Below are positions 23,143-64,000 of a stretch of DNA of 64,000 nt, piece by piece. This DNA comes from Saxidomus purpurata. Its lineage: Eukaryota; Mollusca; Bivalvia; Venerida; Veneridae. The notes under the pieces were generated by a model. It worked only from the letters and a program-made list of their open reading frames with translations. It made no database searches and was not told the origin of the DNA. Location of the stretch: positions 24,066,768 to 24,130,767 of the forward strand of contig JAFMSR010000002.1 in the NCBI GenBank assembly GCA_022818135.1, read 5' to 3'. The position numbers and the translations under genes are program-made. Numbering within the stretch: position 1 is the stretch's first letter; each line of letters opens with the position of its first letter.

Positions 23143-23275
23143 TCAATATATATATATATAATTTTTATTGTTGTAGAAGGCCACATTGAAATATTAGGTA
23201 TGTGTATTGTTTATATGTATCTAAATGTGCATCCTTCGTTAAATAAAGATGTTATTATTATTATTATTATAAAAA
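23143..23275. repeat. (AT)n and (TTA)n tracts, likely 3' tail of another repeat
   Basis: An AT dinucleotide run at 23143-23160, then AATAAAGATG followed by a (TTA)n tract at 23250-23270. An AATAAA-like word plus simple tail is typical of a retroelement 3' end. The next LINE begins immediately after. Confidence 0.5.
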
Positions 23276-23297
23276 TAGGTTCCCCGTATCGCACTAT

Positions 23298-24894
23298 ATG
23301 AAAAAGGCTAGCCTTGACGCTCAAAAGGCATTCGATACAGTTGACCATGAAGTACTGTTCAATAAATTATACCATCTAGGTATCAAAGGTCACCTATGGT
23401 TACTATTAAGAAATCTCTACAGAAATGCTAATGTCAGAGTGAAGTGGAATGGAAATCTCTCAGACGAATTCACCATGCTACAGGGTACCAAGCAAGGGGC
23501 TAAATTGTCAACGACTTTGTATAAATGTTACAATAACAGCACACTTGACTGTCTAGTAAGAAGTAACCTAGGAGCATACATAGGAAACATCCCAGTTGCG
23601 GCACCGACATGTGCAGATGACATCGCACTCCTAGCCAATTCACAGGAAAACCTGCAATCCATGCTTAATATAATAGAATTCTGCTCCAAGAAGGACAAGG
23701 TTACCATCAATCCTGAGAAGTCAGAAATCTTACCAATTAAAGCAAAGCATCTTAACCCAATGTTCTTAAATGGAAAAGAAATCAACCAAACAGATAATCT
23801 TAAACATCTTGGTATAGTAAGAACTTCTAAAAACACCTTAAACACAGAAGATCGGTTAAAAATAGCACGGCAAACTATTTACGCATTATTAGGACCTGGA
23901 CTTCATGCCAGAAGAGGTCTGTCTCCAAAAGTGGCAGTCAAACTTTGGAAAACATATGTACTACAAAGATCACTGTATGGAATGAAGTCTTGCAAACCAA
24001 AAAACTGACATCGAAAGGTTAGAAAAACAACAACGACAAATGCTCAAGCACTTCCAGGGACTCCCTGAAAGAACTGCAACAGTAGGAGTACACATTCTCT
24101 TGGGCGCAGAACCAATTGAATCGATCATAGACAAGCAAAAATTGTCCCTTTTTATGAATATCTGCAGACATAGTGATTCAACAGAGTGCAAAGTTTTATC
24201 TCGACATCTAGTAATGTCTAAACCGACTGACCGGTCATTTGCATCAAACATCAGGTATACCTTACAAAAGTACTCTCCACCAAGTGCGAGGTCCTTGATA
24301 AACAATCCGGTGAATAAACCTAGATGGAAACAGATGGTGGACAAAGCTGTCTCTAACTATTGGTACCTTGAATTGGTTACTCAACTACAAGAAAAATCAA
24401 CATTAAAATACTTACAAATACAAGATAGTCCAATTCAGAAAGCACACAATTTTTGGAATGCAGTACAACCATATGAGCATGATGTAAAACAAGCGGAAGT
24501 AAAGGCAAGACTAATCACAGGGACCTATATACTACAGACAAATGCCGCAAAATTTAATCAAGCAGAAATATTAGGTAGATGCCTTTTATGTCAAAAAGCA
24601 GATGAAAATCTACAGCATTTCCTTCTGGATTGTCCCGAACTCCAGACCTCAAGAACTAAAGGGAACCAGCTCCTCAAGGCCACATTGGATAAAATTCACC
24701 CAGAGGGCTATAATAAAGTGAAAGAACCTATAAAAATGCTTCAGGTAATCTCTGATTGCACTCACAAAGATGTTGCACAATGGATTTACCTAAAAGAAAA
24801 AGATCTACATGATATAGAAAGAGCTACACAAGCCTATTGCTTCCACCTACATAACCAAAGACTGCTCAAACTTACAACTAGCTCAAATAGTTAA
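23298..24894 (+). pseudogene. 5'-truncated non-LTR retrotransposon ORF2
   Basis: Encodes the back half of a LINE reverse transcriptase. Domain A DAQKAFD comes within the first 15 residues, GTKQGAKLSTTLY is the RT 4/5 region, and CADDIAL is the catalytic box (Asp pair at 23616-23621, with Cys in place of the usual Tyr/Phe). A thumb and connection region follow, then a C-terminal zinc-binding motif CLLCQKADENLQHFLLDC. The style (LST-x-YK-x-YNN) resembles a CR1/I-group family I know from marine invertebrates; the clade is not certain. The endonuclease and RT domains 0-2 are missing, which is typical 5' truncation. A 1-nt slip in an A-run near 23995-24003 splits the frame, and the downstream frame reads continuously from KTDIERLEKQQRQ to the stop at 24894. 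It probably died recently, as this is its only obvious lesion. Confidence 0.88.
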
Positions 24895-41579: not shown

Positions 41580-42930
41580 CTTCAGCCTTCTTCAAACAAG
41601 GCTGTCTTACGTCAGTATTCCCCTACCAGCATGGCAAATGCATATAAAATGGTGAAGGAGAGGGGTGTCTCAGTGTATATGGCTGCTAAATTACATGGTG
41701 TCCCTACTACAACCTTACGTGATAGAGTTGATAATAGAGTTTCAGTTGATACTGTTAAATCTGGACCAGAGCCAGTATTAAATATAGAGGAGGAAGCAAA
41801 TCTTTGTGCTCATCTTAAGGAGCTGGCAGGTAGGTTATGGCTACACTCGTGCTGAAACTATAACATTAGCATCTGATTATGCAGTAGCCCTTGGAAAGAG
41901 AACATTGGACAATCCTTTCAGTATGAAATGGTTCTATGGTTTCATGAAAAGATGGCCAGAGCTGAATGTAATGCGCCCTTCTAGTTTGTCTGAACAACGT
42001 GCAAAGTGTGCCAATGATACATGTATTAACAATTATTTCTGTGAACTTGCTAGAATAGTAAACAAGTATGATCCTAGTGATAAGCCTCAGAACATCTACA
42101 ACATCGATGAAAAAGGTATAAACACTGAATTTAGACCACCTAACATAGTTGCAGGTAAGGCTTCAAAGCCACAGGCCATCATGGCTGAACGCTCAAAAAC
42201 AGTGACAATCATTGGTGGAGGTAATGCTTTGGGTCAGAGTATCCCACCATTCTTTGTTTTTCCAGGTGAAAGATTTGTAGATGGTCTTATGGATGGTAAA
42301 ACTACAGGGGCTGATGGTGTAATGACCAAAACAGTCTGGTCAAATACTGAAGTTTTTCAAAAATATCTAAAGAGTCATTTCATTTTATATAAAAGTTTGT
42401 ACAGGGTAGAGACAAGTCTGATACCATTCTTGTTCTTTACGATGGTCATAGAAGTCATAATTCTGTTGATTTAATTGAATGGGTCAAAGCAATAACATTG
42501 TTCTGTTTGTTTTACCACCACACACATCCCACTTGCTTCAACCCATGGATGTTGGATATTTCGGACCCCTTCAGCTGAAGTACAGTCAAGAGTGTACCAC
42601 TTTTGCACGTCTGAACCATAGGGTTGTGAGCAGGTATGATGTGTGTGGTCTTGCATGCAAAGCCTATGCAGCTGCTATAAGCCCTATAAACCTGCAATCT
42701 TCATTTAAAAGGGCAGGTATTTGTCCTCTGTTGGATGGCAAGATCATCTGTTAGTCTTTAGGTTCTAAGATAAAACCTTCGATACTTTATAGTATCAGTA
42801 ACGAAGAAAATGACAAGGACACAGTCTCACCTAGCAGCAATTTCAACATTAGTGTTGAACATACTGCACCTTCATCTACTGACAATAGTCCTGGTAAGGA
42901 TGAATCCCTTCAGGTACCTGAAACTTTTTT
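41580..42930 (+). pseudogene. pogo/Tigger-type (Tc1/mariner superfamily) transposase, frameshifted
   Basis: A DNA-cutting transposase remnant with a pipsqueak/CENP-B-like helix-turn-helix (MANAYKMVKERGVS to VPTTTLRDRV, 41631-41735). A linker with VGYGYTRAE follows, then a DDE_1 catalytic core: first Asp in YNIDEKG (42106), second in LVLYDGHRSH (42441), third in PPHTSHLLQPMDVGYFGPLQ (42548). The second and third Asp are about 36 codons apart, in the pogo range. Three 1-nt frame changes (near 41829, 42385 and 42490) break the gene, and a Ser/Asp-rich tail continues in another frame to about 42930. A polypyrimidine-CAG just before 41580 suggests an upstream exon. All three catalytic Asp codons survive. 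Terminal inverted repeats were not found. Confidence 0.88.
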
Positions 42931-52835: not shown

Positions 52836-55800
52836 TGATACTATAACGGATGTTACAGACTTTTAAAGAAAAGAAAAAAGAAAATCTTGATCCAGCTGAT
52901 TAGAAAATTTACTCTTACAATTGTAGGGGACTGAGAGGGGCCAAGAAGAGGCTGGATATCATAAATCTTTTTAAAGAAAAGAAAGTTGATATTTTGTGTT
53001 TACAGGAATTACACTTTACTCAGGAAATTGAAAAAACGGTATATTCAGAATGGAATGGAAATTGTTTTCTTAGTCATGGACAATCTGATGCACGAGGTGT
53101 AGCAATACTTTTCAAGAAACAGTTAGATATTAAGATAATTCATAGCAAGACAGATGTAAATGGCAATTTTTTTTATTTTAGACTTAACATATAATGACAC
53201 GAAAATTGTACTGATTAATGTTTATACACCAAATATTGCAGCACCAGATTTTTTTAGTAAAATGTTTGAGGTGGTTGATACTTTAGAGACTGAAGATATT
53301 ATCATGTGCGGGGACTTTAACCGTGTATTAGATCCAGAAATGGATTATAACAACTATAAATCTATAAAGCATAATGTACATGGAAGACAAAATCTTTTAT
53401 CAATAATTGATAACAGAAATCTTGTTGATCCGTTTTGAGAATTTCATGGTAACCTAAGAAAATATACATGAAGAAGAATGAACCCATTACAACAGGGCAG
53501 ACTTGATTTCTTTCTCATTTCAAACAATTTGTTAAATTCTGTCAGGAAAAGTAGTATTGATATATTAAAGTTATAAATCTGACCATTCAAGTATAATCTC
53601 TGTCACCTTCAGTACATGGAAAGGGTTTTGGGAAATTTAATAATTCTCTACTTTATGACAACAACTTTTTAAAAAGTGTTAATGCAAAGATAGATGAAAT
53701 TATTCTACAATTATAGTGTGTACCAGTATATGATAGATCAAATGTTTTAAATATGGGTATAACTCATATACAATTTGTAATTAACGATGAGTTATTCTTA
53801 GAGACCCTGTTAATGGAAATTAGAGGGAAATGTATATCATATGGAAGTTACATAGTAAAGGACAGGAACACCAGAGAAATGAAAATCTTGAAAGAAATTA
53901 CTAAAATTGAATCATGTTTATCTATTGAAAATAAAGAAAAGCTAATTTTATTAAAAGGTCAATTAGAAGAACTGAGGAATACTTAACTAAGGGGTTCGTT
54001 CATTAGATCTCGAGCAGATTGGATTGAAAATGGTGAAAAAACTACAAGATATTTCTGTAACTTAGAAAAAAAACTTATATTTCAAATAAAACTATACCAT
54101 TCATTGAAAAAGATGATGGATCAATTATTTTTGACCAGAGTGAAATTTTACAAGAAACTAGAAAATATTACGAAACTCTTTATAGTAAAAAACTATGATA
54201 GATGATTTTGAAATAGAAAATGAAATAGATGATAGTGAAATACAAAAACTAAGTTCTAAACAAGCTAAGGAACTTGAAGGTCTTTTAACTGATAGTGAAG
54301 TAAGTGAAACACTAAAAAATGTGAAAAATGACAAAAGTCCTAGATGTGATGGCTTTACCTCTGAGTTTTACGAAGTATTTTGGAACATATTAGGACAGTT
54401 TGTTGTAAGAGCCATAAACCATGCTTTTTTGTCTAACTCTTTTTCAAGGAATATTAAATTAGGCACTATAACGTATATACCTAAGGAGAACAAACCTAAA
54501 CAATTTTTTAAAAAACTGGAAACCAATAACACTTTTAAATGTTTTATATAAACTTGCATCTGGTAGCATAGAAAATAGGTTGAAAAAAGTATTGAACTCA
54601 CTTGTTTAAAAAGACAATCCGGTTTTGTTAAAGGACGATTCATCGGTGAAAATACAAGATTATTATATGACATTATGCATTACACTGAGGCAAATAATAT
54701 CCCTGTTCTAGTAATGCTGATAGATTTTGAAAAGGCATTTGATTCAATATCATTGAAATTCATTGAAAAATCATTAAGTTTCTTTAATTTTGGAGTCATG
54801 TTTAAAAAATGGGTTCACCTGTTCTTGTATAACACAGAAGTTTGTGTACAACTGAATGGATTTTTATCAAACTTTTTTAAAGAAGAAAGAGGCTGCAGAC
54901 AAGGAGATCCAATTTCGCCTTATATTTTCATATTATGTGCAGAAATTCTAGCAATCAAAATAAGACAATGCAAAGATATTACAGGAATAAAGATTAAAGA
55001 TGAAGAATATATAATATCTCAGTTTACAGATGACACTTCTCTTCTACTAAACGGAAATGATAAGTCATTGAACTCTGTCTTAGATATATTACATAGATTT
55101 TCATTGATAACTGGCCTAAATATAAACTTTGAAAAGACTAAATTGATATGGATAGGCTCTCTCAAATATAGTACAAGGTCGATTAAAACAAGATGGAAAC
55201 TTTCATGGGGTGATACTCAATTCAAATTACTAGGCATACTTTTTGACGTTGATTTAAAAAGGATGCATGGATTAAATTCTAAGGATAAAATAATGAAAAT
55301 GAAAAACAGTATCGAATACTGGAAAAGACGTCAGTTAACAACAATAAGTAGAATAGCTGTTGTTAAAACAACGTTACTTCCCTTGATGACTCGTTTATTT
55401 GTAAGTCTGCCAAATCTCAATGAGAAGTTCATCAAGAATTTTACTGATATGCTAAATGAATTTGTAAGGTGTGGCAAAAATAGAATAAAGAATACAGTAC
55501 TGATCAAAGGTTTAAAAATGATTGATATTCCAAGTTACATGAAAAGGCTAAACGTTAAATGGCTAAGAAACTATGTTAGAAATAGTAGCAGTAAATGCTA
55601 CAATTTGATAAATTCTGTGTTTGACATGGATAAACTATTTAACTGTGGTAAAAATATATAGTGAAACCATTATAGCCAATATTAAGAACGCATTCTGGAT
55701 AGATGTACTCAAGGCTTACATGTGCTACATAGAGAAATTGCCTATTGGTAATACAACACAACTTCTTAATATGCCACTCTTTTAAAATGATAACTTCCTC

Positions 55801-57060
55801 ATAAATAAAAACATATATTTTTACCCTCTTTATACTTTAATGGGATAAGGTTTGTAAAAGATATTATTGATGGTAACGGAAAGTTTGTAAGTTTATATGA
55901 TTTAGAAGAAACAACTGGGAGAACACAAAATTTCCTTCAATTTTATGGCTTAAGAAATGCTGTAAGTAGCTACATAAGGAAAAATAACATACCATTACGG
56001 AAAACTAAAGAATTCCTTTATCCGAAAATAAGTTATTACACACATCCAATTTTATTAAGGACAGACATTGATAAATTTATATATAAAATTCTTATAAGAA
56101 ATGAAGAGAAGCCCACAAGCCAAATTAAGTGGAAATCCATGAGTGAAAACACTATAAACTGGAATTTGATTTATAGTTATGTTTTAAGTGCTCAAGAGAT
56201 ACGTATATACAGTGGTTACAGACGAGAATTTCACATAGAATCTTAGCAACAAATTCATTACTTTGCAAAATGAAGATCTAGAATGATAAGTTTTGCACTT
56301 TCTGTAAGAGCCACGAAGAAACATTATCCCACCTTTTTTGGGAATTTCACAATGTCAAACCAATTATACAATACTTAATTGTAATGATTTAGATCATTTT
56401 GATCAAGATTTTGAAATAAACAAGTTCACGGTTTTGTTAGGGTCTGGAAAACAAGATTACATGTTAGATATTCTTTTTTTAGAAGTGAAGAAGTATATAT
56501 ACCTTAGTAGAAAAAAAGAAGTATTGCCTTGCATTATAGGTTTAAAAAACAGTCTAAAATTAGCATGGGAGATATATAAAATCTCGAACATTACTTATTT
56601 TGAGTATAACAGATGGACAATTGTAAGACACTTTCTATCATAACTACAATTGGTACTTTTTCTAACAAAAACCTTTGTATTTTCAAGCTAAACACAAGAT
56701 TTTACTGACACAGAAATAACAATATACTTTACATAATAAACCTACAAACATCTTTTTTTTTAATCAACAGAAAGAAGGAAACAATTTGTTAAATATATGA
56801 TTTCTCTTTTCGTTCAGACAGATAGATCCCAATTTTTATGTTTGTGTTGTATTTTTTCAATATATAAAATAGGGGCTACACATCAAGTTATTTACAATGA
56901 ATATGTTTTGTAACTTTTCATGTAAAACGTTGTATGTGCTTTTCTTTTCTTCCTTTGTTCTATTTATATAATGTATATGTCTTTGCCATAATATCTTGAT
57001 GTAAATGGCCAAAGGCAATATTTATTGCTGATATGCCAATAAACTTGAATTGAATTGAAT
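52836..57060 (+). pseudogene. L1/Tx1-like LINE, ORF2 nearly complete but dead
   Basis: A non-LTR retrotransposon ORF2. The AP-endonuclease starts near YSYNCRGLRGAKKR (52910), with catalytic-type motifs LCLQELHF, NVYTPN, MCGDFNRVLD and QGRLDFFLIS. The reverse transcriptase follows: KSPRCDGFTSEFYEVFW, VMLIDFEKAFD, GCRQGDPISPYIF, and the catalytic box QFTDDTSLL (Asp pair at 55029-55034). The C-terminal domain has a zinc motif FCTFCKSHEETLSHLFWEFH, whose last Cys is replaced by Phe. The longest open part is 54675-55661. Frames break near 53170 (T-run), 53436 (stop), 53470 (stop), 53986, 54180-54195, 54530-54610, 55661 and in 55670-56340. ORF1 is absent. A 3' UTR of about 400 bp ends in an AATAAA-containing (TTGAA)n tail near 57040-57060. 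The clade is assigned from motif style only. Confidence 0.88.
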
Positions 57061-58069
57061 TTACAATCATGTATGTTAATTTTATGAACTTTGTAAAACA
57101 GGGAACTGAATAGGTTATATATTATTGTTTCATATAATAGTATTTGGTACTTACATCTATGTTAATATAGTCTTTGAAAAAGCCATAGAGCTTGTTTGTA
57201 ATTATAAACATGTATTTTGAAATAAAAGATTATTCCCCCTGAAAAAAAAACCCGCGCATCATGGTGGAAGGGCACGAAAAGATATTGTAATTCAAAACTA
57301 AAGTATTCAGTTGCTTGTGTTCTTGGCGGTCTTTTGATCCCTATGATGCATCTTTGAGTAATTACGCTGACTTTCTTACATATTTATGAAGCAGAACAGC
57401 TAATAAAGCCCCTTACATGTGACATTAATATGAGAAAAGTGAAATACAGGGCAATAAGTGGCTACAGATTAATGTTGTTTGCAGTTTTACTACCTGTTGG
57501 GAGTAGGTCAGCATCTTTAGATTATTCGTTTATTAAAGAGTCTGTTAATTGAAAGACCACCAAAACAGATTGCAACACCTGAAAGGGATCTTATTTTTGT
57601 TTTTGGTTGTTCGAACCTTTACGAATGTTCCCTCGAAACACTTGACATGGATGACACACTTGTTTATAGCTATCACAACGAACTGTTTTGATTTTTTTGA
57701 ATTGTACAATGTAATATGAAAGACAAAATATTAATCGGTAGGTACGTATCACAAGATCTGGTTCATTGGATAAACTATGTACGCTATAGACGAGCCTCGC
57801 GTTCATGCGTATCCGAACTTTAAATGCCTAGCAGAAATGCATCTAGCTATAAGAACAGAAACTTAGAATTAAGTTTGTATGACACTATTATTTCCATTAC
57901 AAAGAAAGTTTCTGCAGCCTATTGAATCACCCTCGAACACTTAAACCCTATGTCACTGAGCTCATGAGAGAGAGGAGGGAGGGACGGGGCGGGGGCAGCG
58001 AGTTTTTCATAACTACGAAGAATTAATGTTTGTTTTAAGACCAAAAGAAACAAAGATGTGATTTACATA
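57061..58069. other. Interval downstream of LINE
   Basis: No gene is seen. It contains the G-rich tract at 57961-57999. Confidence 0.45.
57977..57995 (+). other. G-quadruplex-forming motif
   Basis: GGGAGGGACGGGGCGGGGG has four G-runs with loops of 1-2 nt. It lies about 80 bp beyond the putative poly(A) signal of the minus-strand gene, on the opposite strand. Confidence 0.7.
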
Positions 58070-58075
58070 TTTATT
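58070..58075 (-). terminator. Candidate poly(A) signal
   Basis: AATAAA on the minus strand, 198 bp after the stop codon of the secreted-protein gene. The placement gives a 3' UTR of about 0.2 kb. No cleavage-site evidence. Confidence 0.5.
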
Positions 58076-58272
58076 GCACAAAATTTTGGAACAATACCAG
58101 CTAGCTGGGAAATGGCAACAAGAATGATGTACATGTATGACTTCATCAAATAAATATTGAGGTAAATGTAGAAAACCAACACGGTCAATAATTAAAACAT
58201 TTTAAACATATCAGTGTCATTTTAATTAAAGTCCCGTTGTGTTTTATGTAATGATCCTTTTGCTGAAAGCGT

Positions 58273-60608
58273 TTAATAGGTTACTGGATACACGGGTCTG
58301 ACAGGTCTAATTGGGTTGACTGGGTACACTGGTTTGACTGGGTACACTGGTTTCACTGGGTTGACTGGGTACACTGGATTGACTGGGTACACTGGTTTCG
58401 CTGGGTTGACTGGGTATATTGGCTTAACTGGTCTTACTGGATACACTGGTTTAACTGGCTGGATGATATCATCTCCGCAGTACCTCCTTGTGCATACAGT
58501 TGGCTGTAAGATAATAAAATATTAAAGATACCATATCCTATTTTATCAATGACACATGCACTTTTAAGAAATGAAGATAAAGAAAATTCAGTAACACATG
58601 TAAACAGAAAAAACTCCCACTACTTCCTATTGCTTGTTATATACTTTAAAAATCTATTTTAATTTATTTGGTCTGACAGTTAAGTTAATTAACTCAGAAC
58701 CGGCTATGTTTATACTTTTCATCTTTGAATTTGGAAAGTACATGGTTTTTTGGCCCACATGGAGATTTTTAATTGTTAAATAAAAAAAATTGACTAAATA
58801 AAAAGTGAAAATCAAAATTAACCTACATTAATGTGCAGACTGGTTTTGGGGTTTATTAATTTCAAACAAGTACCATTACCACCATCAATTTAAGAGTAGC
58901 CGATGTGAAACGTGTACATTATACTTTCAGTCAGAATAAAATCTGATATTTTGTAATCATTCGGAAAATGCCGGTCATCTATCCAGTGAATCTACGTAAG
59001 TTTATAATTTTAAACAAATATGCAAGCAGACTGAAAAACACCACTTCTAACCACACCGTGTTCTGGTCCACGTGCAGATTTCAATATTAAACGAAAAAGA
59101 GGTTCACTCTTTTTCAATATCTACACCAATAGAGCACTCCTGACAAAGAACACGGACCAGGTACAGACACAGCTTGAAGGTTGTTGATCTACAGTTTTTG
59201 CACGTATAAAATAATAGGTTTACATTTCATCAATATGGAAGATAACACATTGTCTAGTCAAATGGAATGTATTTTCTCTTATGATACCTTTCTTTACGCT
59301 ATCTGGAGCCACTATCGTGTCCGGACAAAAGTGAAATATCTTTTCATCTAATTAATACTAAAACGCCTACACATATTATGATTGTGATAATTTCAAATAT
59401 TTTATACAAATATAACTCTTTGAACCCTTCCTATAAATTTGTTTAAACTTTACAATCAAGTAATGTAATGAGACATACCCTTCCAAATGATCCACAAGTA
59501 CACGTGTTACAACCATCATAGTAATTCTGACCAGATAATACAGGTCGTCCCAGGTAGTCGTAGCAATAATCTAAAAATACGTACAAATATATTTAGGATT
59601 ATTGCGTAACGAACATGTTGAGTATATTTTCTAGCTCTCCGAAACTCTAGCAAAATAACGTACGATTCAGCGCTGTCACTCTTTATTAATGTTCAATAAC
59701 TCATTTCTTTCTCGGATTGTAAGCTCTCAAGTACTGACTATGTTCCCACTTTCTACGGATAATACCTGACCGTTGTTATTTACGTGAAATTGACTATCAT
59801 TATTTGAAAAATGTCGTCTAGTACTGGTTTATACTCTTAGAAATAAAATGGAATTAATTACTTATTGCTGAAAGTAATTGCTAAAATACATTCATCTGTA
59901 CAAAATATATCTCTATTGAATATTATGAAAATCTATTTTGACTAGCCAAGTTAAATTTGATAGAATATATACAATGAGTAGCGTAATATTATTTCATTTC
60001 TCTCTGCTAATATGAGAACCAAATCATTTATTTGTTATGGCAGTTACTATGTTTTCAAAGCATTCATTGTGTTGAAGCAACTTTATTTGTCTTAACGCAA
60101 GATTGTCAATTTGAGCTGTAATATAAACAATTTCTTTCATAATCATTTTGCTTTTTCTCTTACATTTGATTAACTTGAGCTCATTTTATGTAAATAATCG
60201 ATAAGGTGAATGAGAAAAATATATTTATCTGCTATTAATGTATAAAAATGTAACTTACTTTGTTCTGCTGGATATTTGGGCTTTATATACCCTGCAAAAA
60301 ACGTAGAAACGTGTTTAAAGTGTATTTGAAATCAATTTTAAGAGTATTAGGAGAAGATAACTATGTACTTATTAAATAAGTCAGTAGTCTAAGAAATACT
60401 AACACGATCTTAACATAAACATGAAATTGTAGTTATACATCTATGACATAATAATTTAATATCCCTATAAAAGATTCAGTATCACGTGATAAAATCAGTT
60501 ATAATTTATTATTAACTACGACAAATATAAATAATTATTAAACTACGTACTAGCTTGTCCCAATACCATGCATCCCAGCAACAAACAGACGACAGCCACT
60601 GTGTTCAT
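58273..60608 (-). CDS. Secreted pacifastin-like cysteine-rich protein with Pro-Val-X repeat tail (4 exons)
   Basis: Reconstructed by eye as 137 residues. Coding exons are 60551-60608, 60259-60291, 59479-59570 and 58273-58503. Every intron has GT...AG ends (donors GTACGT, GTAAGT, GTATGT; acceptors TTTTGCAG, ATTTTTAG, ATCTTACAG) and the phases join without a stop. Residues 1-19, [19 protein letters not shown], are a signal peptide, so the product is secreted. Residues 33-70 hold six Cys: C33, C51, C54, C56, C65, C70, as [10 protein letters not shown] then CTRRYC. This fits the pacifastin serine-protease-inhibitor pattern (CNxCxC, G, CTx3C) except that the first spacing is 17 rather than about 9-12; a VWC-like half-domain is the alternative. 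By family analogy Arg67 would be P1, pointing to trypsin-like targets. Residues 77-136 are 20 Pro-Val-X triplets (X mostly Tyr, Lys, Asn, Arg), suggesting a structural or adhesive role. A TATA box lies 84 bp upstream. Function is inferred. Confidence 0.82.
58276..58458 (-). repeat. Coding minisatellite (PVX)20
   Basis: A 9/18-bp tandem repeat that encodes P-V-X triplets in the last exon on the minus strand; the dominant unit is 18 bp (PVYPVN/K). X is Tyr seven times, Lys five, Asn four, Arg three and Thr once, and a final Tyr precedes the stop. Units differ largely at synonymous positions. The plus strand of the same DNA gives a Gly/Thr-rich ORF that is a shadow. Confidence 0.9.
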
Positions 60609-60691
60609 GTTTACTCTAAAGTCTCAGTGTTAGGATAAAGTCCCGAAGTAAAACAAAAAGTTCATCTGGTAAAACAAGTCTTTTCGGTTCA

Positions 60692-60699
60692 TATTTATA
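60692..60699 (-). promoter_or_regulatory. TATA box of the secreted-protein gene
   Basis: TATAAATA on the minus strand, 84 bp upstream of the ATG. Initiation about 30 bp downstream would give a 5' UTR of about 55 nt. No upstream ATG occurs in that stretch of the mRNA except ATGAACTT (about 60643), in a different frame. Confidence 0.6.
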
Positions 60700-61650
60700 C
60701 CTTTTTTTTAAGGAAATACATTTTTTTCCACAATATATGGTTAAGTCAGACAATTACGTCTACATGAAGTTAACAATAAAATCCTTGTGGCTTTTTGCCT
60801 ATCCAATGGCTGAATATTATTGATATAGTGGTCATACGCAAACAGTCGACGGACGTTTTTTCATATAATTATATTAAATGTCACACTATGTCATAGAAAA
60901 TAACCACGCATTACAACATTATTATAGCGTTCTAAGTCATTAGCCCGTAACGGAACGTGCATATCCTTGTCAATTGTCAGCATTGCTTACGTTACGTCAG
61001 TATGATGCACTTAAAAGCAGTAATGTGGTTATTAACCTGTATCTTACGTTTCATTTAGTGTTGTGTTTTTATATCATTCATACAACTGAAACATTAGTGG
61101 TAGTGGTTCACTCAATATATAGCGTAAGATCAGTGGTTCAAGTTCAATATAAATTGTACGTGACCTTCCTTCCGACTACTTGATGTTGTATGTGTGTGCG
61201 GTAATATTTGGGGCTGCCACAGTACAAGGACGGTCATTTGATTGTGTGTTAATAACAAATTTACCATTCTTTTTATTGGTTTATGTGCATTCAGAGATCT
61301 TGAGCAGATGAAAAAATAGGCCGGCATTAATGCTCATGGAATCCTTAGACAGGATAGACGGGTATGGTGGTCAAACTTAATGGCTGCTGACTTGGATAGT
61401 GGCGGTTCATGGGTTGTATTTGACGATCAATTTCAATGATACCATAAAATAGAAAATAAAAGACATTTACGGTGACTATCTATTACTTTGAAACTTGGTG
61501 GTAAGATATCTTGGGTTAGAATATACTCACGATTTAGCGATCACGATCAAAGTCATTTTATGCGAGACGATATGGTTTCTGCTTTATAATGTTAGCCGTA
61601 CCTCCACAAAATCTGATATTAATGCATCAAGTTTGGCTATTGTGTTTTTC
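60700..61650. other. Intergenic region
   Basis: Lies upstream of the secreted-protein gene. Short ORFs on both strands have no recognisable similarity. Confidence 0.45.
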
Positions 61651-61651
61651 T

Positions 61652-61714
61652 TGGCATATCACGTTAATTTCAAATATAACGTGATCTTACACCGAAACCG
61701 ACATTTATCCTCTA
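61652..61714. mobile_element. Collapsed copy of the 151-bp fold-back element
   Basis: GTGATCTTACACCGAAACCGACATTTATCCTCTAT-like sequence is the reverse complement of the left edge of the element at 21718-21760. The neighbouring ATCACGTTA-ATTTC-AAATATAACGTGAT forms a short stem, suggesting that most of the palindrome was deleted. Confidence 0.6.
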
Positions 61715-61719
61715 TATAA

Positions 61720-62350
61720 TTGGATCTTATTAGAAACATTGTATATATCAAAGTGACTATAGACGAAGCTTCAAATATTTCCATGCTAAATTATAAAATT
61801 ATATGTACAGGGCGAGTATTTTGGATGCAAACAAATTTTTTAGCCATGGACGCGAGTCTATAAATAGTTTCGTGAATTTTTTTTATTTGAACACGTAATT
61901 TTTCTACATTCAGGACCCATGCGGCATGAACTTTAATATGTACACAAACTTCAAGAACAGATACGTAAATCAAAACCATGCCCGCAAGCTTAACTCCTTA
62001 ATAAATACAATAAAATAGGAAAATTTAAATGAAAAGATGAAAATCACACTGAATAGATTTTTTAAAGAGTCAACTTACAACTGAATACATTCGATGAAAA
62101 TAACAAAATCTGTTATGTTTTATATAATTTATTTAATTCATGTAATTTTGATAATGAATACAATTTATTCTATCATTTAATGTTATAATAAAAAAAGAGA
62201 AATATAAATTTCGTTATAAAAATCTATTCTGTCTGAAACAAAAGTATGCATTCTATAAATATCAGTTGCGAAGCAGAACACCGAATCAATATACAAGTTA
62301 AAAGGGAATTATACTATATGTGTATGTATTATAATGATAAAAACACTTTG
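61720..62350. other. Intergenic, 3' flank of the receptor gene
   Basis: AT-rich. Minus-strand AATAAA words at 62164-62169 and 62128-62133, about 190-230 bp past the receptor stop codon, could serve as poly(A) signals. Confidence 0.45.
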
Positions 62351-62358
62351 AAACTATT

Positions 62359-64000
62359 TTAAATATTGATGGTCTGCTCCTGCGAGTTCTGAAAATCATC
62401 TTCATACTTCAAGGCCTTTTGAAGACGTGTTTTGAATTTCTGATCGGATAGGCTTACTGTGACATATTTGTTTATATAATTTTCCACGTCATTAGGTATG
62501 GCAGAAGCTACGATATTACCAAATGTTAATAAAAGCAAATAGTTGTAGTTACTTAGAACAGATTTTGATATCACAGTTGAAAGAATATACATTTTAACAT
62601 CATCTTGAATCGTTTCCATAGAAAAGATAAAAATAAAATGTCCAGATCGATTCAATTTGTTGTCAATTTCATCACGTATATCTGTACCAGGCATAAAATC
62701 CTGCTCTAAAATTCTTACATCAACATGTTCTCGTATTAGTTCAGGTATAAGTTTTCTCCTGACCTCATGGTCAAGCTCATCTGGATATGTAACATATACT
62801 AAGTTACTAATATAGTTATCAGAGACCTGTCTGTCTTGTATCATTGGAATATCACTTTCGTCAGTTAGTTCTCTCATGTCGTGCTTATCCAATTTCGGCA
62901 TCAAATACAAAACACTTGATTGTAGAAACCTTGATTTCTTATTGATAAATTTTCCACATTTTATGTATCTCCTCAGTTTTTGGTCCATACATTTGCTTTT
63001 TACGTCACTGTCCACGAGTAATACGATAGAATCTGTAAAATTGTTAATAGCTCTTTCATATGCGATATTCCATGCAGACATTAGAATTTCGTCTTGTAGC
63101 ATGTCTTCTGTCCATGAGAATATGATTTTTCTCGACTTGTTAATTACCTGTTCAATATTTTCTAGAATAGAAAACCCGACAATTAAGTCTTCATACAAAT
63201 TACAAACACTGTAGCCTTTGCTTAAAAGCATATCCACAATATTACATCGAACGAAGATGGAGTCCAGATGTGAACATATCACAAAAACATCATATTCCGT
63301 ATTTTCATCATTTTGTTTTTGCTTATCGAACGAATGCACTCCGCAATACATAAAGAGCAAAACTTTGATAGTAAAACTCTGAAAATATATCAAAAGAGAC
63401 AGTGAAACTAGTACAAACAAAGTACATCCTATTATTACAGCTGGCAGAACAACATGCTCAGCAATTCTTACTGGTGATACGGACGGACAGACGAAATAGA
63501 AATCGGGAACAGCTACCATTTGCTTTACTTTGCTCATATTGTAGGAACATTCAACTGTATTCCAGTCACTCACTGGACTTGTTCTCTTTACGAGCCAATT
63601 TTTCATCCATTTTGTGTTGCAGTCGCAAAGAAAAGGATTACTTCCAAGTGTTAATGTAATGATGTTCGCCGACGTTATTTGAATGGGTAAACTTGTTAAG
63701 TTGTTGTGATCTAGTTTCAAAGATGTCACGTTTGTCATTTCAAGTGCCTCATTTACAGTTAAAACATTTATTCTGTTGTGTGACGCATCAAACTCTGTAG
63801 CATTTTTGAAATACTCCCTGGCACTTATTTGTGTGAGGTTTGCATTCTGAAACCATAATTCCAGTTTTCCTGCTGGCATATTTTCCGGCATGTGTGTCAT
63901 GTTTATATTTCTGCAGTCGATTATAATTCTATTAACTGGAGTATTGGAGTGGTTTGATGTTTGCCCGTCCATACGTTCGAAACAAGTACAGCGCTTTGGA
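62359..64000 (-). CDS. Toll-like receptor with two TIR domains (3' part)
   Basis: A single-pass pattern-recognition or cytokine-type receptor signalling through TIR adaptors. Numbering is from the first in-window ATG (63972; 537 residues). The frame stays open to the window edge and encodes PKRCTCFER upstream of that Met. This looks like an LRRNT cap, so the Met is probably internal and more ectodomain lies beyond 64000. Residues 20-115 hold leucine-rich repeats (such as LKLDHNNLTSLP), 115-162 an LRRCT cap with CDC...C...C, and about 174-197 the membrane helix. TIR-1 spans about 225-360 (box 1 YDVFVICS; BB loop EDLIVG, lacking the usual Pro). TIR-2 spans about 390-522 (box 1 LVYVTYPDE; BB loop QDFMPG, canonical). 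Ordinary Tolls have one TIR. The coding frame is intact with no intron in this part. I recall reports of twin-TIR Tolls in bivalves but could not verify them here. Confidence 0.93.
   Translation of the reverse strand, partial: PKRCTCFERMDGQTSNHSNTPVNRIIIDCRNINMTHMPENMPAGKLELWFQNANLTQISAREYFKNATEFDASHNRINVLTVNEALEMTNVTSLKLDHNNLTSLPIQITSANIITLTLGSNPFLCDCNTKWMKNWLVKRTSPVSDWNTVECSYNMSKVKQMVAVPDFYFVCPSVSPVRIAEHVVLPAVIIGCTLFVLVSLSLLIYFQSFTIKVLLFMYCGVHSFDKQKQNDENTEYDVFVICSHLDSIFVRCNIVDMLLSKGYSVCNLYEDLIVGFSILENIEQVINKSRKIIFSWTEDMLQDEILMSAWNIAYERAINNFTDSIVLLVDSDVKSKCMDQKLRRYIKCGKFINKKSRFLQSSVLYLMPKLDKHDMRELTDESDIPMIQDRQVSDNYISNLVYVTYPDELDHEVRRKLIPELIREHVDVRILEQDFMPGTDIRDEIDNKLNRSGHFIFIFSMETIQDDVKMYILSTVISKSVLSNYNYLLLLTFGNIVASAIPNDVENYINKYVTVSLSDQKFKTRLQKALKYEDDFQNSQEQTINI

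Follow-up and report, generated by a model that had tools for sequence, protein, structure and literature searches.

Here we show that the minus strand of a 64,000-nucleotide stretch of Saxidomus purpurata DNA (hereafter, the window) carries what is, judged from its sequence, a genuine four-exon gene, predicted to encode a small secreted pacifastin-like protein with a repetitive proline tail. We consider it on balance probable that the product is a secreted long-loop pacifastin, which would act as a canonical serine-protease inhibitor and would be held in extracellular material by a rod of P-x-x triplets. The gene is under purifying selection.

Gene structure and the Mercenaria relative

The four exons, joined on the minus strand, gave 414 nt in frame, coding for 137 residues and a stop. 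Exon 1 (60551..60608, 58 nt) contains the start codon, a 19-residue signal-peptide-like stretch (60608-60552) and the first base of codon 20; it has a counterpart exon in all four paralogues described below and corresponding residues in a protein of Mercenaria mercenaria. Exon 2 (60259..60291, 33 nt, flanked by phase-1 introns) codes for a linker, also present in paralogues B, C and D and in Mercenaria. Exon 3 (59479..59570, 92 nt) encodes Cys1 to Cys4 of the pacifastin-like module, with 17 residues in the C1-C2 loop, and exon 4 (58273..58503, 231 nt) encodes the Cys5-Cys6 reactive-site loop CTRRYC, followed by the P-x-x tail and the stop. Introns 1-3 measured 259, 688 and 975 nt, were all of the GT..AG type and had phases 1, 1 and 0. 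The exons, the compatible phases and the length of the product were thus all as the original prediction had given them. The hydrophobic stretch proposed to follow the ATG was also present: the mean Kyte-Doolittle hydropathy of residues 4-17 was 2.85, and from hydropathy alone we infer that the protein would be secreted. A possible TATA box, TATAAATA, at 60692..60699 (minus strand, 91 nt upstream of the ATG) and a possible polyadenylation signal, AATAAA, at 58070..58075 (minus strand, 197 nt after the stop) are consensus matches only.

A search of 5.8 billion proteins returned 13 rows, one of which was a full-length relative, the uncharacterized protein LOC123562974 of M. mercenaria (P0001, 106 residues). 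It shared 75 of 105 aligned residues (71%) with residues 1-105 of the window protein, with one gap, and the alignment reached into the P-x-x tail; all three predicted junctions therefore lie inside conserved sequence. LOC123562974 has the same signal-peptide-like start, linker, module with a 17-residue C1-C2 loop and P-x-x tail, but its tail comprises 10 triplets instead of 20 and its predicted P1 residue is Tyr instead of Arg. The other 12 rows (P0002-P0013) were set aside as low-complexity matches, P0002-P0007 and P0009 sharing, by eye, only P-x-x-like stretches. Two fragments from public data, P0014 and P0015, resembled unspliced exon 3, their similarity ending at or within one residue of the end of that exon. 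Chance assembly of the exons is ruled out by the orthologue and the paralogues. The Pfam match, the Mercenaria relative and the paralogues all support a gene with predicted splicing, whose product would be secreted and pacifastin-like. The gene had been called hidden, which holds within the window only, since the uncharacterised Mercenaria orthologue already bears a precomputed Pfam Pacifastin label.

A literature search found no paper on LOC123562974, and searches with the tail repeat strings returned only unrelated titles (sea ice, bridge vibration). The combination of this head with this tail was not found in the openly accessible papers searched on pacifastin with mussel, clam, Crassostrea or proline-rich mollusc proteins, which include two octopus papers that mention pacifastin (PMC7693380, PMC10142993). 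The window gene is thus a variant of the pacifastin kind whose tail combination is new to the literature searched.

The head is a long-loop pacifastin-like module

The six cysteines, predicted in the order CNTCTC...G...CTRRYC, were located at C33, C51, C54, C56, C65 and C70. In a pacifastin these would pair as C1-4, C2-6 and C3-5, and the C5-C6 loop would be the part that inhibits serine proteases. The window protein passed the Pfam Pacifastin_I profile (PF05375) with 33.6 bits against a curated cut-off of 27.9, the match spanning residues 44-72 and leaving Cys1 outside. Mercenaria P0001 (34.9 bits) and paralogues C (32.1), D (29.4) and E (30.9, scanned over residues 1-78) also exceeded the cut-off, so that all five proteins scanned whole or nearly so were positive; paralogue B was left out of the scan, its module being identical to that of the window gene. 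The exon-3 fragments P0014 (24.6 bits) and P0015 (22 bits) fell below 27.9. The core C2-N-x-C3-x-C4-x2-3-G-x3-6-C5-T-x3-C6 was found in six of six proteins (five gene models and Mercenaria). Solved pacifastin inhibitors were matched by sequence, the best being SGPI-2 (E 3.7e-5). A profile search with both Pacifastin_I and VWC had been proposed; the former gave the match described above, whereas no VWC or fibronectin type I (FnI) row appeared for the full window protein at E up to 1, a search in which HMMER filters can drop weak matches. Amelogenin and Bflower rows were below cut-off and were taken as compositional.

Arthropod pacifastins (LCMI/PMP, SGPI; PF05375) share with the window protein the core CNxCxC...G...CTxxxC and the reactive loop, but, according to PMC2689174, their conventional C1-C2 loop has 9-12 residues and they are mostly multi-domain precursors. 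The C1-C2 spacing of 17 residues, constant in all six proteins, lies outside that conventional range. A 2026 report, PMC13388995, describes a mollusc-rich class of long-loop 'Ancestral' pacifastins with six Cys, a C1-C2 extension of 13-20 residues rich in Tyr/Phe and Gly, a conserved Asn after C2 and a Gly in C4-C5. All these features recur in the window protein, whose 17-residue loop contains 4 Tyr and 3 Gly. The pacifastin module as such is well supported, and by its sequence the head is a putative member of the long-loop 'Ancestral' class, for which PMC13388995 also asks a structural match with a TM-score of 0.5 or more. The available text mentions no P-x-x tail for this class. K-M, K-K and R-M are among the P1-P1' pairs it names as dominant in molluscs and in non-metazoans, as against R-R in the window protein.

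The predicted structure was middling, with block pLDDT values of 64-78 over residues 31-70; of 106 residues, 31 scored at least 70. Pacifastins ranked first and second in the Foldseek list from this model, yet the fold matches had little strength and extended to fibronectin type I and VWF modules, and a second, weak structural look placed FnI chains on top and a VWF chain at rank 5. VWC and FnI modules may have a similar small beta fold, as far as such a weak look with a middling model can tell. These matches bear on the alternative that the gene encodes a structural protein of matrix, shell or periostracum, in which the head would be a non-inhibitory VWC/FnI-like knob for binding or assembly and the tail the working part. 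The long Tyr/Gly-rich C1-C2 loop recalls VWC and FnI modules, the sub-threshold Amelogenin match falls on the tail, and PMC13388995 links long-loop pacifastins with Laminin G, Lustrin and VWC. The same paper gives 67.4% of long-loop proteins as solitary; a matrix role is therefore not general among them, which counts against the matrix retention proposed below. Pacifastin_I scores above cut-off in every protein scanned and an exact cysteine core in all six argue for a pacifastin head, and we regard the structural alternative as unlikely, though deserving of some weight.

A family of paralogues on the same contig

Within a 1.13 Gb assembly, the window is part of contig C2. A protein search of this assembly, in which 150 of 311 candidates were scored, gave 17 rows, a lower bound; 13 of them fell in five genes, A to E, so that the genome holds at least five. 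Gene A is that of the window, B lies at C2:23.336 Mb, and C, D and E form a same-strand cluster at C2:55.077-55.093 Mb. One of the remaining four rows, on contig C824, was a GPVGPA-like repeat. Exon lengths of 58, 33 and 92 nt with a variable last exon were found in A-D, and the junctions were kept in B, C and D. Paralogue E keeps the lengths of 58 and 92, and a look for motifs found no recognisable exon 2 in it.

The similarity between A and B covers a unit of about 3.2 kb in inverted orientation, whose copies lie about 787 kb apart and align as two blocks, one 95% and the other 89% identical in nucleotides. A comparison of window 57001-62300 with 6.5 kb showed no match in the flanks. Since the unit is discrete, inverted and on the same contig with unmatched flanks, B is not favoured as a haplotype copy; it may be an assembly error. 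About 320 nt of intron 3 of the window gene (58811-59131), perhaps a mobile element, are missing from B, and no second copy of this piece was found within the window.

Pairwise dN/dS was 0-0.41 in 10 of 10 pairs (Nei-Gojobori; small samples of 58-70 codons, highest dS 1.23). Exon 3 of A and C was 93.5% identical, as against 58-76% for the introns. Taken together, these values place the gene under purifying selection. In assembly G000, pacifastin domain matches were densely clustered on contigs C13 and C16, as at C16:29.670-29.690 Mb and C13:1.161-1.171 Mb; such clusters probably represent bivalve pacifastin genes with several domains, or arrays.

The predicted reactive site varies among copies

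The position rule Cys5-x-P1-P1'-x-Cys6, taken from PMC13388995, places P1 of the window protein (Cys5-Thr-P1-P1'-x-Cys6) at Arg67, with its codon at 58486..58488 on the minus strand. The predicted P1 residue was R, R, M, Y and L in A, B, C, D and E, respectively, and Y in Mercenaria, while Thr at P2 and Arg at P1' were constant in six of six proteins. The fixing of these two residues amid variable loop neighbours is a further point against a non-inhibitory head. Four or more residue types were seen at 3 of 5 non-Cys positions among P4, P2, P1, P1' and P2'; of the 27 positions outside this group, 2 reached that number (Fisher p 0.018, with the threshold of four types set after looking and with A and B identical in this region). 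The largest number of residue types was found at column 26, which corresponds to P10; a P6-P10 loop is named in connection with trypsin selectivity in the title of PDB entry 1wo9. P1 is not uniquely variable, because P2', P4 and P10 vary as much or more.

The variation of P1 among paralogues strengthens the inhibitor reading, and the window protein is likely a serine-protease inhibitor. The N-terminal module would inhibit serine proteases in the canonical, substrate-like manner, Arg67 at P1 directing the window copy to trypsin-like targets and Met, Tyr and Leu directing the paralogues to chymotrypsin-like ones. The pattern suggests that members of the family act on different proteases.

The P-x-x tail

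The C-terminal tail (58276..58458, minus strand) consists of 20 P-x-x triplets and a final Tyr. A tail of the form (Pro-Val-X)20 had been proposed. The 20 uninterrupted triplets stood, far beyond chance, and 17 of them were P-V-X, the others being two P-I-X and one P-A-X. The period is exactly 3, the pI about 10, and the 61 residues include 8 Tyr and 8 Lys plus Arg, every Lys, Arg and Tyr, except the final Tyr, preceding a Pro. Lys, Arg and Tyr before Pro make poor trypsin and chymotrypsin sites; these enzymes would thus hardly cut the tail, and standard tryptic proteomics would miss it. A turn of the polyproline-II helix takes three residues, matching the strict Pro period of three. We propose that the triplets make up an extended rod of the polyproline-II type, presenting a Pro face, a Val face and a Lys/Arg/Tyr/Asn face, which would resist trypsin and chymotrypsin through the Pro that follows Lys, Arg or Tyr.

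Triplets numbered 20 in A and 26 in B, where one of them carries Thr in place of Pro. The longest run was 11 triplets for C, 7 for D, 16 for E and 10 for Mercenaria. Between the near-identical A and B its length differs by 18 residues, and in C (L010) and E (L012) a frameshift replaces the end of the tail with a different, Cys-containing one; these frameshifts are either true variants or assembly errors. With 7 to 26 triplets and frameshifted ends in C and E, tail length is not strictly constrained. Such drift, together with the strong tandem repeat at the DNA level, would be expected if the tail were an unconstrained coding minisatellite, its triplets gained and lost by slippage of 9-nt units, and only the head mattered. 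Against this, the P-x-x period largely persisted in Mercenaria and in each of the five copies even as the X residues changed; B and E show single breaks, and in C and E the period holds as far as the frameshift. The ending PV-T/P-Y is shared by A, B, D and Mercenaria. We therefore consider a tail free of constraint rather unlikely; by the sequences compared, the period is largely kept while the length drifts.

The cationic, proline-rich nature of the tail also brings to mind a two-part immune effector, in which the head would block microbial or parasite proteases, with the tail serving as an antimicrobial peptide. Penaeidins likewise join a proline-rich part to a cysteine-rich part. The P1 differences with gene duplication would fit such a role, as would, weakly, the upstream neighbour of the gene. 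This is a 546-residue open frame at 62362-63999 (minus strand), running to the edge of the window, with TIR domain matches above cut-off plus a leucine-rich repeat match that stays below threshold, which by its domains is a putative Toll-like receptor piece. The tail, however, is rich in Val and Tyr, not Arg-Pro-rich. In paralogue D it is down to 7 triplets, one of which contains Glu, and the tail of E is, by eye, Gln/Asn-rich and hardly cationic. An immune effector of this kind appears quite improbable to us.

Other features in the window were of mobile-element type. LINE-like reverse transcriptase domains (RVT_1 above cut-off) were found on the plus strand at 54579-55658 and 23247-24005, with a sub-threshold zf-RVT match at 23986-24891. 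An open frame at 41788-42471 (plus strand), which by eye we take to resemble a pogo/Tigger-type transposase, gave no Pfam match at E 0.1.

Implications

For the favoured reading of a secreted, rod-bearing inhibitor, we conjecture, from the composition of the tail and from reports on related proteins, that the tail anchors the inhibitor in extracellular material, an anchoring that had been suggested for shell matrix, byssus or mucus. The rod would retain it in mucus, periostracum or shell matrix through charge, hydrophobic contact or Tyr cross-linking. More tentatively, and with considerable doubt on our part, the clam genes may form a family of matrix-tethered inhibitors in which P1 has diversified (R, M, Y, L) while its loop neighbours stayed fixed, and in which a protease-proof rod sets place and reach. 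The paralogue set with its changing P1 is the most useful addition made here, as it makes the inhibitor reading directly testable. With one small head domain, a near-pure period-3 tail and natural P1 duplicates, inhibition, specificity and tethering are each separately measurable with a few constructs, and the family is a small system in which the recent idea of long-loop pacifastins as matrix-bound inhibitors can be put to the test. The P-x-x tail is possibly of interest for the design of extended protein linkers or wet materials. If the proposal is true, the clam would possess a modular, self-anchoring protease shield for its mucus or shell matrix.
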